A stretch of DNA of 64,000 nucleotides from Paludibacteraceae bacterium (GTDB taxonomy: Bacteria > Bacteroidota > Bacteroidia > Bacteroidales > Paludibacteraceae): positions 1 through 64,000 of the forward strand of contig CAJOEX010000001.1 of the NCBI GenBank assembly GCA_905233415.1. Reading direction: 5' to 3'. Shown one piece after another: positions 2,341 to 55,425 of the stretch. Within the stretch, counting starts at the first letter, position 1. The number at the start of each line of letters is the position of its first letter. Both the position numbers and the translations under genes were made by a program. A model generated the notes under the pieces. The model did not search any database. It worked only from the letters and a program-made list of their open reading frames with translations, and was not told the origin of the DNA.

Positions 2341-4458
2341 TCAAACAAGGTCTGCACGACCGCCGCATTCTGTCAGCACGGCTTTCGCTATCGAACTTGT
2401 TACCGGCTCGTAATGTGAGAACTCCATACTGCTGGTTGCACGTCCGGAAGTAATCGTACGCAGAGCCGTCACATAGCCGAACATCTCGGCCAACGGCACT
2501 TTCGCCTTCACGATACGGGCACCCGTGCGGGCGGTATCCATACCTTCAACCTGTCCGCGACGTTTGTTCAAGTCACCAATCACGTCACCCATATTCTCAT
2601 CCGGAGTTACGATTTCAATCTTCATAATCGGCTCCATGAGTACAGGTTTTGCTTTTATACAAGCGTTCTTGAATGCTATCTGCGCACAGATTTCAAAACT
2701 CAACTGGTCACTGTCCACAGGATGAAAACTACCATCCAACACGGTCACTTTCAGTTTGTCAAGCGGGAAGCCTGCCAGTACGCCGTTCTTCATCGCGGTC
2801 TGGAAGCCCTTCTCAATGGCAGGAATATACTCCTTCGGAATATCACCGCCTTTTACCACATCCACAAACTGTAACGTACCCTCAAACTCCGGGTCTGCCG
2901 GTTCCACGCGGACAATGATGTCTGCAAACTTACCGCGACCACCGGTTTGTTTCTTGTACGTCTCACGCAACTCTACCGGAGCGCTGATTGCCTCACGGTA
3001 AGCCACTTGCGGACGCCCCTGGTTGCACTCCACCTTGAACTCGCGTTTCAAGCGGTCAATGATAATCTCAAGGTGCAACTCGCCCATTCCGGAAATAACC
3101 GTCTGACCGGTCTGGTCATCCGTCTTCACCGTGAACGTCGGGTCTTCCTCCGCCAATTTTGCCAATCCTACGCCTAATTTGTCGAGGTCTTGCTGGCTCT
3201 TCGGCTCTACTGAGATACCGATGACCGGAGCGGGGAACTCGATGCTCTCCAGTGTAATCGGTTTTTCTTCCGCGCATAGCGTGTCGCCCGTGCGTATATC
3301 CTTAAATCCTACGCACGCGCCTATGTCGCCTGCGCATATGACATCCACCGGATTCTGGTGATTCGAGTGCATCTGGAAGATACGGCTGATACGTTCTTTC
3401 TTGCCCGAACGGGTGTTATACACGTACGAACCTGCTTCCAGTTTGCCTGAATACACTCTGAAATAGCACAAACGTCCCACATACGGGTCGGTTGCAATCT
3501 TGAACGCCAACGCGCACAATGGCTCATCTTCGCTCGGATGACGTACAACCGGCTTGTCGTTACGCGGGTCTGTACCGGCGATCTCCTCTGCATCCAACGG
3601 ACTTGGCAGATAAGCACAAACGGCATCCAGCATTGTCTGAACGCCTTTGTTCTTAAAGCTCGAACCGCAGATGACGGGGAATATATGCAATCCGACCGTA
3701 CCCTTCCGGATGGCGGAACGGATTTCTTCTTCGGTAATTGTTGACGGGTCGGAGAAATATTTCTCCATCAGCACATCGTCAAATTCCGCACAGGCCTCAA
3801 GCATCTTGTCGCGCCATTCTTCCGCTTCTGCTTGCAGATTGGCGGGAATAGCCTCTTCTACATACTCGGCTCCCAGTGTCTCGTCATGCCAGATGATAGA
3901 CTTCATCTTTATGAGGTCCACCACACCCTTGAATGTTTCTTCTGCACCAACAGGAATCTGAATCGGACACGGAGTCGCACCAAGCGTTTCTTTGATTTGG
4001 CGTACCACATCAAAGAAGTTGGCACCGCTGCGGTCCATCTTGTTCACATAGCAGATACGGGGAACATTATACTTGTCTGCCTGACGCCACACAGTCTCGC
4101 TCTGCGGCTGCACGCCGCCTACTGCGCAGAATGTCGCCACAGCGCCATCCAGAATACGCAGCGAACGCTCCACCTCAACGGTAAAGTCCACGTGACCCGG
4201 AGTGTCTATCAGGTTGATTTTGTATTTCTCGCCGTTGTATGTCCAATAAGTGGTCGTAGCAGCAGACGTGATAGTGATACCACGTTCCTGCTCCTGTTCC
4301 ATCCAGTCCATCGTAGCTGCACCGTCGTGAACCTCACCCATTTTGTGAGTCAGTCCGGTGTAGTAGAGAATACGTTCTGAAGTAGTAGTCTTACCGGCAT
4401 CAATGTGAGCCATGATACCGATATTCCTATTATATTTCAAATCGTGTTTTGCCATCAA
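2341..4458 (-). CDS. fusA: Elongation factor G
   Basis: [22 protein letters not shown]...[17 protein letters not shown]; 705 aa; str operon position. Confidence 0.97.
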
Positions 4459-50076: not shown

Positions 50077-50160
50077 GCGCAGGTGGTGAAATTGGTATAC
50101 ACGCTACTTTGAGGGGGTAGTGGCAGCAATGTCGTGTGAGTTCGAGTCTCATCCTGCGCA
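50077..50160 (+). tRNA. tRNA-Leu(GAG)
   Basis: GCGCAGG...CTTTGAGGG anticodon loop, long variable arm, GAGTTCGAGTCTC T-arm, CCTGCGC. Confidence 0.93.
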
Positions 50161-51687
50161 CGTTGAGACATCTTCTTCGGAAGGTGTCTCTTTTTTATTG
50201 CCGTAACTTACTGAAAATCTGTCAAGTAAGTCAAAAATTGCATTGCGATTAGTGGTTCGATAATTGCGAATTTCTCTATCCCATAAAATTCCGTTAGGAA
50301 ACACCAATTCTTGTATTTGTCTCTTCGTTTCTAAGTCCCCATCATCCCACAAACTGCCTAATTTAGAGCAAGTTACGAGAACTTGATTGATTTTGTCATC
50401 GAGGTTCGATAAATCTAAGGCGTACTTTTCCAACTCCGCTTCAATATCTGCCTTACTGCGCTTTAATTCCGTAGAACTTATCATATATTCCTCATCGTCT
50501 ATTTTATCTGTCGAATGCTTCATAATGCATTTTTTCAAGTCGTTCTCAACTTCGGTTAAATGCTTTTTAAGCATTGTCACTTGGTTGGTACTTTCCTGTG
50601 TGTGTTTGCGAAACATATCACGAATGATATTTTCGTATTGCAGCAGCAAAGACATTGGTAAGTCATAAGCATATAGTAACTGCTTGTACTTGCAATGCAT
50701 TTCCGGTGCTGAAACGTTATTCTTGCAGCCAATCTTATTGCATTTGTAATAGTCTTTCCCTTTGCTCTTGACGCTGTACGCAGTGAAGCGTGTGCCACAA
50801 TCAGCACACGCTACGTGATGAGTTAAAGGGAATTGCTCCTTTTTCTTCTTTTGCTTATACTTACCCGAACGGTTCGACATGATACGTTGTACCTCTAGCC
50901 AATCTTCCCAACTAACCGCCTTTTCAATTTTGCCATCTACCATGCCGTTCTCTAGCATTTTGGAGCGTATCTTTCCTGCATAAAACGGATTGTTGAAGTA
51001 ATGGTTAAGTGTTTGCTTGGTTATATCTAGCCCTCTAACCTTCAAGGCATCCAATATCTCACCATTTGAATAGCCTAGTATCTTTAACTTAAATGCCTTC
51101 CCTATCAATTGTCCTTCTTCATTCAGATAGCATACTGAGTTGAGGCTTTTACCTTCCCTGTAATACCCTTTTGGAAGCACGCCAATATATGCGCCGCATT
51201 CATAACAATGCTGCCTTCCGGAATAGAACTTGTCCGCACGGTTGTCATTATCCCACTCTGCCACATTCAATGAATTACGAACCATCATAAAACCTTCTTT
51301 AGTAGAGGTGTCAAACCCTGTTTTCGCCGACTTAGCAATCACTCCCAAACTGCGCAACTCCTCCAATATCGTAATAGCCTGTCCGTTACTACGGCTAAAC
51401 CTATCAAATTCAGATACTATTACATATCGAATAGATGAATCCTTTTTGACTATTGAAATCATTTGCTTAATCATTTTGCCCGGCGTTTTTGCCGATTCGT
51501 GTTTACCTCCGAAATAGCCATGGTTTTCTCCTACATCTGCTATAGTTAAGCCTTCACGCTCTACATACTTTTCGCACAAAGTCTTCTGGTAGTCGAGACT
51601 ACCGCCATTCTCTTCTTGGTACTGGGTTGATACTCGCGTCCATATAACGCACTTCTTACCTTTTCTGTCTTGTCTGTAATTTATCAT
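50149..51687 (-). CDS. Large serine recombinase (resolvase + recombinase + zinc-ribbon domains)
   Basis: KCVIWTRVSTQYQEENGGSLDYQKTLCEKY...VSEFDRFSRSNGQAITILEELRSLGV...CADCGTRFTAYSVKSKGKDYYKCNKIGCKN. Confidence 0.9.
   Translation of the reverse strand: MINYRQDRKGKKCVIWTRVSTQYQEENGGSLDYQKTLCEKYVEREGLTIADVGENHGYFGGKHESAKTPGKMIKQMISIVKKDSSIRYVIVSEFDRFSRSNGQAITILEELRSLGVIAKSAKTGFDTSTKEGFMMVRNSLNVAEWDNDNRADKFYSGRQHCYECGAYIGVLPKGYYREGKSLNSVCYLNEEGQLIGKAFKLKILGYSNGEILDALKVRGLDITKQTLNHYFNNPFYAGKIRSKMLENGMVDGKIEKAVSWEDWLEVQRIMSNRSGKYKQKKKKEQFPLTHHVACADCGTRFTAYSVKSKGKDYYKCNKIGCKNNVSAPEMHCKYKQLLYAYDLPMSLLLQYENIIRDMFRKHTQESTNQVTMLKKHLTEVENDLKKCIMKHSTDKIDDEEYMISSTELKRSKADIEAELEKYALDLSNLDDKINQVLVTCSKLGSLWDDGDLETKRQIQELVFPNGILWDREIRNYRTTNRNAIFDLLDRFSVSYGNKKETPSEEDVSTCAG
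50165..50196 (+). terminator. Rho-independent terminator of the tRNA cluster
   Basis: GAGACA tCTTctTCGGAAGg TGTCTC + TTTTTT. Confidence 0.85.
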
Positions 51688-52050
51688 GCTCTACTTGCTT
51701 TTGTTATGTGATTTATACCTATTTGAAAAAGATTATCTATGAATTTTTCTACTATCAGTCTATCTTCTTCGTTTAATTCTTTGATTACTAAATTGTTACG
51801 ATTCATTCATATAATCGTATATAGCCTTTCGGCTGCGGCTGAACCGCTTATTAGGTTTTTAGGCTCATCGGTACACCCTTATGTGCTTTCGATGTCTTTT
51901 ACTGCCGCCATGGATAACCACAAACCAAGCATTGATTCATTGTTTACGTCATGTCATATTCGCATTGTTTTTAATCGTCAATGCAAATATACAGCAAATT
52001 TTTCAAGTAACCAAAAATTTACATCAAATCACGCAATTTTCTCAACGTGT

Positions 52051-52614
52051 TTACGCTCGTGCCTGTAATGGATTGCACATTCCGATCTCCTTTCCATATT
52101 GCGCGCGCATATCTGCTTCACTCTTTCTATAACCTTCTTTGCGTCCTACCTTTCCACCATTTGCACGGAAATGAGCATATCCGCTAGACATCCGGCTGCG
52201 TATCAACGAACGTTCCATACTATTAAATTGCCCTATTATGCCTAACACCAATTGCGCGATAGGATTTACTGATCCATCAGCCATCAAAGTCTCTAATCCA
52301 TTTTGAAGGATATACACGCTTACATTTAACTGCGTTAACTGCTCTATCACCTGTAAGAAGTCGATAGCACGGCGACTTATTCGGCTGCACTCATACACTA
52401 ATACCTTGTCAATACGATTAACCGCAGCAAAATCTAACAAGTCGGTAAGGGCTTGACGCTCGGCAATTTTTTTTGCACCGCTGATTTTTTCACTGAATTC
52501 ACGAACCACATCATAGTTCATGCGTGCTGCATAGTCTCTTAACTCGGATAACTGACGCTCATAATCCTGTCCTTGCGTTGATACTCTAGCGTAGATACAA
52601 ACTCGTGTTTTCAT
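52051..52614 (-). CDS. Small serine recombinase (resolvase/invertase, Pin-like)
   Basis: MKTRVCIYARVSTQGQDYERQLSELRDYA...VLVYECSRISRRAIDFLQVIEQL...GQFNSMERSLIRSRM. Confidence 0.9.
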   Translation of the reverse strand: MKTRVCIYARVSTQGQDYERQLSELRDYAARMNYDVVREFSEKISGAKKIAERQALTDLLDFAAVNRIDKVLVYECSRISRRAIDFLQVIEQLTQLNVSVYILQNGLETLMADGSVNPIAQLVLGIIGQFNSMERSLIRSRMSSGYAHFRANGGKVGRKEGYRKSEADMRAQYGKEIGMCNPLQARA

Positions 52615-52691
52615 ACCTCTAATCAAAACAATTATTATTAAATATAACGTTTATTTAAATTCGTTGATTTACATTCTAATCAATTACAAAG

Positions 52692-52723
52692 CTAAAGTAC
52701 AGCTTTTTTCTGATATATGCAAA
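52692..52723 (-). promoter_or_regulatory. Minus-strand promoter upstream of the resolvase (copy 1 of duplicated module)
   Basis: Minus strand TTTG - 20 nt - TACTTTAG. Confidence 0.6.
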
Positions 52724-52770
52724 TTTTTCGGCATTAAAATTGCATTTTTTTGCATTTTTTTGTAAAATTG

Positions 52771-52802
52771 TTTGATAATATCATAATTTATTGTTATCTT
52801 TG
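52771..52802 (+). promoter_or_regulatory. Promoter of the XRE regulator
   Basis: TTTG (52771) - 20 nt - TATCTTTG (52795-52802). Confidence 0.75.
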
Positions 52803-52818
52803 CATAAAATTTTGAATT

Positions 52819-53175
52819 ATGAAAGAGAAATTAACAGAAAGAATCGCAGCCTCAGCACTTCTAGAAGACAACGTAAAGATGAGCGTTGGATGTGGAAAGA
52901 AGTATCGCTCATTAGCTGAATTAGCACAGGCGGTAGGGATTACTGCGCCGTCCTTAACTCATGCTCTAAAGGGCAATCCAAGTATATACACGGTACAAAA
53001 AATAGCCGATGCACTAGGTGTGTCTGTTGCATCGCTATTTAAAGAAAAGAATGCGGTAGAAGGCTATGCGATTATTAAAGGAAACAAGAAAGTTGCCTTT
53101 ACTTGCGTAGAAGAATTAGAAAAGGTACTTGTAGATGCAAAAAAGAAAGACAGCCCAGTTATCTTTTCAATATAA
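52819..53175 (+). CDS. XRE-family HTH transcriptional regulator
   Basis: SLAELAQAVGITAPSLTHALKGNPSIYTVQKIADALGVSVASLF. Confidence 0.88.
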   Translation: MKEKLTERIAASALLEDNVKMSVGCGKKYRSLAELAQAVGITAPSLTHALKGNPSIYTVQKIADALGVSVASLFKEKNAVEGYAIIKGNKKVAFTCVEELEKVLVDAKKKDSPVIFSI

Positions 53176-53176
53176 T

Positions 53177-53217
53177 CGGTAAAAGTTAGGGGGTAATACC
53201 CCCTAAAACTTTCACCG
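53177..53217. terminator. Hairpin between convergent genes (probable bidirectional terminator)
   Basis: CGGTAAAAGTTAGGGGGT aat ACCCCCTAAAACTTTCACCG. Confidence 0.7.
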
Positions 53218-53231
53218 TGCTACAAAACAAA

Positions 53232-53573
53232 CTAAGCAACTATATAATCTGATGATTCAACAATTGCTTTTACTTCTTCTGCAGAAATTACTTTTACGAT
53301 TCTAGAATAGCTTCCCTTGCTAAATACACCACCATTGGTGTGCTTGGTTTCAGCAATAATTGCACTACCCTTGCCGTCATAATTGAATTGCAAGAAATCA
53401 ATGCTTGTGCCATCTACACACCCTTTTGCAAGATACTGAGTTTGTGTGATACCAAGCATTTTCTCGGCATCTTTTTGCTCATTAGGCTTAAATGCGTTTA
53501 ACATACTTTTCAATAATTTAAGTTTTCCTACCTCCTTTGTTGGCGAATCAGTTTCTCCATATATATCTTCCAT
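53232..53573 (-). CDS. Hypothetical element protein; start at 53573 preferred, ORF open to 53654
   Basis: MEDIYGETDSPTKEVGKLKLLKSMLNAF...; the upstream extension lies in a large palindrome. Confidence 0.6.
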   Translation of the reverse strand: MEDIYGETDSPTKEVGKLKLLKSMLNAFKPNEQKDAEKMLGITQTQYLAKGCVDGTSIDFLQFNYDGKGSAIIAETKHTNGGVFSKGSYSRIVKVISAEEVKAIVESSDYIVA

Positions 53574-53603
53574 GATATATACAAAAAGTGGACGCTTCTT
53601 ATC

Positions 53604-53716
53604 CACTCCGAGGCTGTAGGAATCGCCCATAGTCGTAATAAGTAACGCCCACAAAACACGTGGACGTTTGCTAACTTATTAAACGACTATTCCTAAACTT
53701 CCTACATTTGGGAGTG
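53604..53716. repeat. 113-nt imperfect palindrome
   Basis: Five stem blocks: CACTCC/GGAGTG, TGTAGGAA/TTCCTACA, ATAGTCG/CGACTAT, TAATAAGT/ACTTATTA, AACGCCCAC/GTGGACGTT (8 of 9), 7-nt loop. Confidence 0.88.
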
Positions 53717-53764
53717 TTTAAGTTGCAAACGTTATAACAATATACTCTTTCGTATATTCGCCAA

Positions 53765-53796
53765 CAAAAGTACTGCTTTTTTCTGATATACGCAAA
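53765..53796 (-). promoter_or_regulatory. Minus-strand promoter (copy 2 of duplicated module)
   Basis: Minus strand TTTG - 20 nt - TACTTTTG. Confidence 0.7.
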
Positions 53797-53885
53797 TTTT
53801 CAAGGAGCAAAATAACTTTTTTGATTGTTTTGACACGTTTTGCACACTTTGTAGAGCCTCAGCCATAGATTAAAAGGTATCAAAA

Positions 53886-54818
53886 TTAGTTTGATACAAG
53901 CATCCCCATGATTTTGTCTCGCCAGCCCACTTCATTTTGCTCTGTTGGATTGTTACGCCTATTAAGAGCTTCCCTATATGGATTCAGTATTTTTGTCATG
54001 CCTGTCTTCTCTGCGTACTTATCTTTAAGCGTGGCTTCTACCTTCTGCATATCATAATCGCAATCCTTCAAAATGAGTTCGATTCTATATTGCTGAATAG
54101 CTGATATGTCTGTTTGAGTATTCGGGGCTAATACTTCATCTGCGAAATCGTATAAAGGAGTGGCTTTCGCAGATAACACCGTTTTGAGTATAGCATTTGT
54201 TATCCGTAGTGTTTGTCTCACTTGTTCCTCGCTATTAACCCTGATTTCAAAGCGGCATTTGTTCTGAAAGTCAAGCGGAGAAATATCGTATGCTTCCCTA
54301 AAACTCCTGTTGGTAGATTTCCCCATTTCGGTTTCCTTGTTATATACCGTGAGTTTCTTCCACGCCTCATTGGTATCTGCTATCTTGGTTATTTCAAGAT
54401 TGCCGTTTTTGTGCAGTTTTGCATCGAACAAACGATAACTGCGCATGTTGTTACGCATGAATCTGTTCATCTCCTTGATAGATGTACATTCTACATCTGT
54501 AGTAATATCACATGAAGTCACCTCGCCATCATTCAATATCTTTTCGTAATCTAAATAGCATATACCTAAAGCATTGATATTGTCAAAGCATTGTTTGATA
54601 GTTTGAACAGAGATGAGTTCTGCGTATCTTTTTCCTAGTATCTTACCTGTAAACTCTATCACAAGTTCTTTGCGCATATTCTTAACCTTTATTGCTAAGT
54701 GAAAAGGTATCTCTTGCGTGTATATCAATACTCCTTTTTTACATACGAATGCCCCGTTTTTAATGTTACTTATGTATGCCGTATTCGTTAAAATCATTAA
54801 CCTATCAAACTTAATCAC
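53886..54818 (-). CDS. Putative phage/plasmid replication initiator (gpII/X-like)
   Basis: LTVYNKETEMGKSTNRSFREAYDISPLDFQNKCRFEIRVNSEEQVRQTLRI resembles phage II/X-type replication proteins; size and element context. Confidence 0.5.
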   Translation of the reverse strand: MIKFDRLMILTNTAYISNIKNGAFVCKKGVLIYTQEIPFHLAIKVKNMRKELVIEFTGKILGKRYAELISVQTIKQCFDNINALGICYLDYEKILNDGEVTSCDITTDVECTSIKEMNRFMRNNMRSYRLFDAKLHKNGNLEITKIADTNEAWKKLTVYNKETEMGKSTNRSFREAYDISPLDFQNKCRFEIRVNSEEQVRQTLRITNAILKTVLSAKATPLYDFADEVLAPNTQTDISAIQQYRIELILKDCDYDMQKVEATLKDKYAEKTGMTKILNPYREALNRRNNPTEQNEVGWRDKIMGMLVSN

Positions 54819-54885
54819 TTCTCATTGTGCTTTTCTGTATATGTTATTGTTTGCCCAAAATCTCACCGTCCCTGCCCTTAATAAG

Positions 54886-55089
54886 TTATTGGGTTGCACC
54901 GATTAAATCGCTCATGGTTATGCCTGATTTCGGGCGATGCGGTATTGTTTGCCAATAGTCTTTCATCGCTTGGCTTATCCTTTGCTTATGTTGCTCGGAT
55001 TTTGCTTTTCCTTGCGTGCTGCGGCTTATGCGCTCGCGTGTGGCATCATCTAATTCGCGCCATTGTCTTTTGTGTGGTTGGTTATTCAT
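54886..55089 (-). CDS. Small basic NUMOD-like protein
   Basis: ELDDATRERISRSTQGKAKSEQHKQRISQAMKDYWQ resembles NUMOD3-type helical repeats. Confidence 0.45.
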   Translation of the reverse strand: MNNQPHKRQWRELDDATRERISRSTQGKAKSEQHKQRISQAMKDYWQTIPHRPKSGITMSDLIGATQ

Positions 55090-55294
55090 TGTCTATCTCA
55101 GGCGTTTTTTGCCTGCTCCTTACTAATAAATACAGCAAGAATAGAAAAAGTAACAAGTATAGTAACTTTTTTCGCAGATTTTTTAGCCGGAAAAAATTAT
55201 TTGTTTGGTAAGAGGTATGCGCTATTATGCCTACTTCAAAATGCAAAAGGCGGGAAGGAAACATGCGCGCAAGCCTTGAAAATACGGGGAGGGA

Positions 55295-55326
55295 GGGCTG
55301 AGGCTATCTACAAAAAGCCGCAGCCC
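55295..55326. repeat. GC-rich hairpin near the right end of the element
   Basis: GGGCTGAGGCT atctacaaaa AGCCGCAGCCC. Confidence 0.7.
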
Positions 55327-55393
55327 CCCCATATAAACTGGGACGATGTTTTTCGATAGAATCTGCCCTTTTTGCAAGATTTTCTGCATTTTT

Positions 55394-55425
55394 CTTGCAG
55401 GAATGAAACTTTTTTACTACCTTTG
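55394..55425 (+). promoter_or_regulatory. Bacteroidetes-type promoter with no CDS downstream
   Basis: CTTG (55394) - 20 nt - TACCTTTG (55418-55425). Confidence 0.65.

Follow-up and report, generated by a model that had tools for sequence, protein, structure and literature searches.

A palindromic sequence before accessory genes of Bacteroidales as part of a leader RNA with two conserved, mutually exclusive folds: a candidate transcription attenuator

What is the function of an imperfect palindrome of 113 nt that lies between two genes of a small mobile element? The question was raised by an earlier note on a window of 64,000 nucleotides (the whole stretch of DNA analysed, positions 1 to 64,000 of contig CAJOEX010000001.1 from a Paludibacteraceae bacterium), which described the palindrome at 53604-53716 with its complementary blocks and proposed for it an origin of rolling-circle replication, a packaging hairpin, or a regulatory leader transcribed from a promoter at 53765. 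Our analysis confirms the description and supports the last of these proposals. It is well supported that the palindrome corresponds to a segment of a cis-acting 5' leader RNA between this promoter and a cargo gene, and equally that the RNA is a member of an order-wide Bacteroidales family that has no Rfam entry. The best reading of this leader RNA is a cis-acting bistable transcription attenuator, to which we assign a probability of roughly 60%. The evidence throughout is sequence-based and comes mostly from MAGs, and E-values are rough.

The host element (window 50077-55400) adjoins tRNA-Leu(gag) and carries, in order from the tRNA, a large serine recombinase, a second serine recombinase, an HTH gene, a cargo slot, a gene that the earlier note had called Rep-like, and a short ORF with a weak match to NUMOD3. 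The Rep-like label found no backing: the product of this gene (53886-54818, minus strand) has homologues in 14 genomes of the same genus and gave no match in Pfam, PHROGs, NCBIfam, or a PDB-fold search (pLDDT of its model, 78). Its relatives were found neither in phage records nor in plasmids, and relatives of the cargo protein were absent from phage records; blastn gave no match for the window leader in plasmids or for one family copy in either plasmids or phages.

Related small mobile elements (L025-L038) with a variable cargo slot occur in a rumen Bacteroidales genus. The gene order is common to L025-L032 and L036, with variation, L032 having an invertase-like match elsewhere in the element and L036 lacking the NUMOD3 match. 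In L027, L028, L030, and L036, only about 200 bp separate the Rep-like and HTH genes, and a local fold scan found no comparable structure in that gap; its shuffles preserved nothing beyond base composition, so that its z values are looser than the dinucleotide-shuffle z of -4.75 given below. In the window, L025, L029, and L031, the slot holds a gene that is preceded by a strong structure. The RNA family described below is represented at this same place in all three of these cargo-bearing sister elements (L025, E 1e-16; L029, E 2e-53; L031 by fold), and L031 shares the 3' hairpin and the U-tract of the window although it is absent from the list of matches to our covariance model R1. DNA similarity between the window and its nearest element ends at the promoter, at 53765, which suggests that leader and cargo form one exchangeable module.

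All parts of the leader are read on the minus strand. The promoter, AAAATTTGCGTATATCAGAAAAAAGCAGTACTTTTG (53765-53800), is of the Bacteroidales type and includes a -7 box, TACTTTTG (53772-53765), of the form TAnnTTTG; it has near-copies throughout the genome (26 matches to its stretch AAAATTTGCRTATATCAGAAAAAAGCAGTACTTTTG). One near-copy, at 52694-52717, precedes the gene of the second serine recombinase. At the predicted transcript start, the sequence contains a small 5' hairpin, AATATAC/GTATATT (53739-53758), and a variable 5' hairpin is present at the same leader position in other family members. The palindrome follows, then a U-tract, and then the cargo ORF (53232-53576), which encodes 114 amino acids from its most likely start, ATG 53576. 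No homologue of this ORF was found in 358 genomes of the GTDB family or in the genome contig collection; the protein had no match in Pfam, PADLOC, or PDB sequences, its best other match in an order-wide search had an E-value of 0.0013, and its structure model (pLDDT 44) was too poor for use.

Folding of both strands, which the earlier note had suggested, gave strong structure in each case. As RNA, the minus strand 53570-53740 reached -56.3 kcal/mol vs -36.7 +/- 4.1 for dinucleotide shuffles (z -4.75, 0/200), and as DNA, the plus strand of the palindrome region had a z of -4.35. The predicted RNA structure is a long rod with its core at 53604-53716, in which the two halves of the sequence pair with each other through an outer helix, CACUCC/GGAGUG (53716-53711/53609-53604), and, further in, P3 (GUAGGAA/UUCCUAC), P4 (AUAGUCGU/ACGACUAU), and an apical stem.

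The same strand can also be folded so that each half forms its own hairpin. The 5' hairpin of this split fold, ACGUUUGC AACUUA ... UAAGUU A GCAAACGU (53664-53732), belongs to a half that folds alone with a z of -2.28. Its outer stem, ACGUUUGC/GCAAACGU, is the alternative pairing that had been pointed out in the earlier note, ACGTTTGC/GCAAACGT, which proved real and joins 53732-53725 with 53671-53664. The 3' hairpin, GUGGGCGUU-A-CUUAUU ... GGAUAAG-A-AGCGUCCAC (53652-53588; alone -26.5 kcal/mol, z -3.31), is followed directly by the U-tract UUUUUG (53587-53582) and is a predicted intrinsic terminator. An independent pattern scan for terminators returned 3 sites in 701 bp vs 0.4 expected, among them a terminator-like site at 53609-53585 on the minus strand, with nine pairs and then a T-run, to which the short AGTGGA/TCCACT hairpin of the earlier note, likewise real, belongs. 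Each hairpin of the split fold carries a mini-hairpin: at the tip of the 5' hairpin AAAU-GUAGGAA-GUUU (53709-53695), and in the 3' hairpin GGGC-GAUUCCUACA-GCCU (53628-53611), which holds UUCCUAC. The 5' loop GUAGGAA (53699-53705) is complementary to the 3' loop UUCCUAC (53622-53616), and a kissing contact between them is predicted; the same two strands make up helix P3 of the rod.

The hairpin of L029 is a dispersed sequence: 106 of the 178 genomes in the genus have it, and so does the window's own genome. Forty-two full copies were aligned, 40 of which, with the window excluded, make up alignment A3, and the covariance model R1 was built from these 40 copies from elsewhere. Searched with filters off against the 5.7-kb element, R1 placed its best match exactly at 53604-53716 on the minus strand (15.5 bits, E 5.4e-4), the next-best match in the element having 7.3 bits. 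With 250 kb searched, the E-value of the window copy was 0.024, a modest score for a divergent copy; the match to L038 had an E-value of 3e-10. The window copy also has the further marks of the family: its halves fold on themselves, the loops are complementary, the 3' hairpin ends at a U-tract, the TAnnTTTG box stands upstream, and a same-strand ORF lies just downstream. Six other copies of the RNA are present in the window's genome.

At E <= 1e-4, R1 matched at least 242 of 358 genomes and at least 21 of 33 genera of the GTDB family, and in an order-wide draw, matches were found in at least 54 of 319 genomes and at least 34 of 189 genera; these are minimum figures, since only a small number of candidates was scored in each genome. 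When 24 genomes of other genera, chosen for having matches, were scanned more fully, each gave 2-14 copies. A motif scan of named genomes pointed, among the matches listed, to Bacteroidales or Paludibacteraceae MAGs, mostly of ruminant origin. Rfam 15, searched at gathering and relaxed thresholds, returned no family match for the window, a typical copy, or the divergent copies, and the only Rfam match beside some copies was DUF805b (RF02914), outside the rod.

Complementarity is clearly kept in the homologues, with compensatory changes, and the lack of conserved complementarity that the earlier note had named as a possible objection is thus not what we find. In A3, 98.4% of cells are paired in the rod, with a covariation of 0.275 vs 0.122 after shuffling and at most 0.067 when the structure was slid. 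In 24 divergent copies, 43 of 57 pairs show double changes and covariation is 0.595 (shuffled 0.226, slid at most 0.102), in an alignment that leans to the rod because it was fitted to the model. P3 covaries, with 15 double changes at each of A3 45:196 and 47:194, and the rod-only helices, namely the outer helix and P4, covary too.

In the split fold, 99.4% of cells are paired in the same 40 copies. When the halves of 38 divergent copies were realigned by MAFFT alone, without the model, covariation was 0.309 for the 5' hairpin (shuffled 0.203, slid at most 0.119) and 0.313 for the 3' hairpin (shuffled 0.241, slid at most 0.143); the slide control favours these structures because they were derived from the same sequences, and the shuffles used for all covariation values ignore the relatedness of sequences. 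Since the four strands are mutually complementary, the covariation of some split helices arises in part from the rod itself, and only the mini-stems, which are unpaired in the rod, are specific to the split fold. These mini-stems covary (A7 45:61 and 46:60, 12 and 14 double changes; A8 51:63, 7). Because both they and the rod-only helices covary, both folds appear to be selected.

Folded alone, the halves have a mean z of -2.0 to -2.6 (5') and -3.7 to -4.1 (3') in the family. Under randomisation that preserves the rod, halves as stable as those of the window arose in 0 of 100 cases (z -3.29); the family mean is -3.13, with values below -2 in 31 of 38 copies and not in the other 7. In the 40 copies, the stretch that follows the outer helix can pair with the 3' strand of P5/P6, and the energy of this duplex is -13.45 with a copy's own partner, -10.61 with those of other members, and -6.60 with shuffled ones. 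Predicted stability favours the rod over the split fold, by 11.5 kcal/mol in the window (-56.3 vs -44.8) and by about 24-29 kcal/mol on family average; the RNA could therefore be simply a rod, with the split fold as a transient. A compact complex in which loop contacts and both hairpins coexist is a possible alternative to an exchange between the folds. In many copies from the genus, for example L088 and L092, a candidate pseudoknot (AUAUGUC/GACAUAU) was seen by eye at the 5' end of the leader, upstream of the rod.

An antiterminator and a terminator that exclude each other and are both conserved are the hallmark of terminator attenuators, and a predicted pair of this kind is found here. In a bistable attenuator, the 5' hairpin would form first, during transcription. 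In the OFF state, the 3' half would close on itself, and the split 3' hairpin at the U-tract would terminate transcription; in the ON state, the loop contact would lead to strand exchange with the 5' hairpin and to the rod, which would break the terminator and let the polymerase read into the cargo gene. As the rod is 11.5 kcal/mol more stable in the window, termination would have to win in time, not in energy. A protein, the speed of RNA polymerase, RNase III, or a ligand could bias the outcome. The switching and its trigger are what we infer from the comparison of sequences: that the split 3' hairpin would terminate, that the rod would allow read-through, that a loop contact would start the exchange, and that there is any regulation at all. 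In the window, the leader would control the small gene in the cargo slot of the serine-recombinase element. Attenuation based on short upstream ORFs was set aside, such ORFs in the leader, checked by eye, not being conserved.

That the selected molecule is an RNA of the promoter strand is indicated by the mismatch types among paired cells, where G-U far outnumbers A-C (253 vs 10 in A3, 158 vs 30 in A5). The context of the copies points to a leader. In the genus, the TAnnTTTG box occurs upstream in 38 of 42 family copies, downstream in 8, and on the reverse strand in 4; an ORF lies to the right of 40 of the 42, the nearest one being on the same strand in 37 of these 40. In other genera, the box is upstream in 26 of 29 copies and a same-strand ORF downstream in 28 of 29, the promoter strand alone having been read. 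In L082, a long open frame overlaps the copy.

Several of these properties would also fit an independent small structured RNA that has a promoter and terminator of its own and works in trans or within a ribonucleoprotein, with the ORF reached by incidental read-through: the promoter and the terminator-like 3' end delimit a discrete RNA of about 180-330 nt, and the internal-loop sequences conserved across the order exceed the needs of a simple switch. We nevertheless regard it as unlikely, since a same-strand ORF lies behind almost every copy at a short distance that often leaves no room for another promoter, and since copies that are numerous and divergent within one genome suit a regulon more than one small RNA.

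A mobile or recombinogenic DNA palindrome, whether a repeat of the MITE, REP, or ERIC kind or a cassette site like the attC of integrons, would explain why the sequence is dispersed, imperfect, found beside accessory genes, and carried in a mobile element's cargo slot, but it is quite improbable. Orientation and position are fixed between promoter and ORF (box in 38/42, same-strand ORF in 37/40), the excess of G-U over A-C is not predicted by DNA hairpins, and the copies within a single genome are old and divergent. Among 35 six-kb loci, a second same-strand copy was found only in L079, where copies stand in tandem at 2592-2826 and 3060-3286; with one copy per locus otherwise, there are no cassette arrays, and no integron R or L core boxes were recognised by eye.

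Translational control or coding, in which the ORF would begin within the rod, at an in-frame ATG (53630) beside the P4/P3 region, is very improbable given that covariation is of the RNA type and that the ORFs of relatives nearly all start past the U-tract; for the same reason, the start of the ORF that had been listed as 53232-53654 is most likely ATG 53576, past the terminator, and it is unlikely that the palindrome is translated as the N-terminus of the longer frame. An origin of rolling-circle replication, single- or double-strand, or a packaging hairpin is hardly credible despite the adjoining gene that looked Rep-like and a long hairpin that is stable as single-stranded DNA (z -4.35), since homologous cargo-less elements have no comparable structure there, similarity to the nearest element does not extend past the promoter, no relationship between the Rep-like gene and known Rep proteins could be detected, and the RNA recurs at hundreds of further places in genomes, some of which may lie beside such an element.

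The products of the ORFs downstream of the copies are mostly unrelated, with clusters of nine BspA or paralogous-domain proteins and six CsgG-like proteins and the rest in pairs or single, and this want of a single theme counts against the attenuator reading. They include surface proteins, lipoproteins, and products of polysaccharide and anti-phage genes. Hand-picked examples of Pfam matches are DegT aminotransferase, metallo-beta-lactamase, DUF4007, radical SAM, and DUF2971, and hand-picked PADLOC matches are SspB (E 9e-87), viperin-like pVip, PDC-S31, and several helicase defence models; loci with defence-model genes behind the RNA are L283, L263, L279, L069, and L306. Behind the RNA in L105 and L284 are genes of small cysteine-rich proteins whose N-terminus is twin-arginine-like (RREFFKxAAKAALPV...); these may be precursors of peptide natural products. 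The DUF805b RNA lies between rod and ORF in L049, L053, and L227-L229.

Returning to the bistable attenuator, we suggest, as a tentative extension held at somewhat less than even odds, an order-wide class of Bacteroidales riboregulators in which tandem hairpins would make a loop contact, exchange strands to a rod, and thereby switch their own terminator, as a shared regulon on accessory genes (surface proteins, polysaccharide, SspB, viperin-like, and other anti-phage genes) carried by mobile elements. This structured RNA, present in the majority of genomes in a large Bacteroidales family of gut and rumen and occurring across the order, is missing from Rfam 15 and may be a widespread and unrecognised gene switch. 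If it is a switch, it would offer one handle on the control of variable surface and defence genes in these bacteria; its two conserved, exclusive folds provide a directly testable model of co-transcriptional strand exchange, and a regulatory leader that travels with cargo genes on mobile elements is suggested.

In the open-access literature, to which our search was confined, palindromic candidate RNAs have been described from human-gut Bacteroidetes (HMP2_4205, 1065, 1032, and 4078), three of the four being predicted terminators (PMC8040213). They measure 80-132 bp and have other gene neighbours named; compared with our family by description only, they could overlap with it. DUF805b, an Rfam-listed cis-regulatory motif, is a separate motif of 35 nt that does not overlap the rod and has no match in the window's element. 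In its general plan, the leader resembles intrinsic-terminator attenuators of the riboswitch or T-box type, with a promoter, a structured leader, a pairing that competes with a terminator hairpin and its U-tract, and then the gene. It differs from them in having no known aptamer or specifier, in an exchange that involves the whole molecule, one long rod vs two hairpins with complementary loops, and in standing before heterogeneous accessory genes in many copies per genome. Processive antitermination leaders, such as put of HK022, EAR of Bacillus eps, the LoaP leaders, and the UpxY-dependent capsule leaders of Bacteroides, stand upstream of accessory or surface-polysaccharide genes where transcription must pass terminators, and UpxY systems occur in Bacteroides itself; to our knowledge, the rod and two-hairpin architecture has no counterpart among their RNAs. 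In kissing-loop antisense pairs of the CopA/CopT or RNAI/RNAII type, a loop-loop contact is followed by strand exchange into a long duplex, whereas here both hairpins are part of one RNA, in succession.
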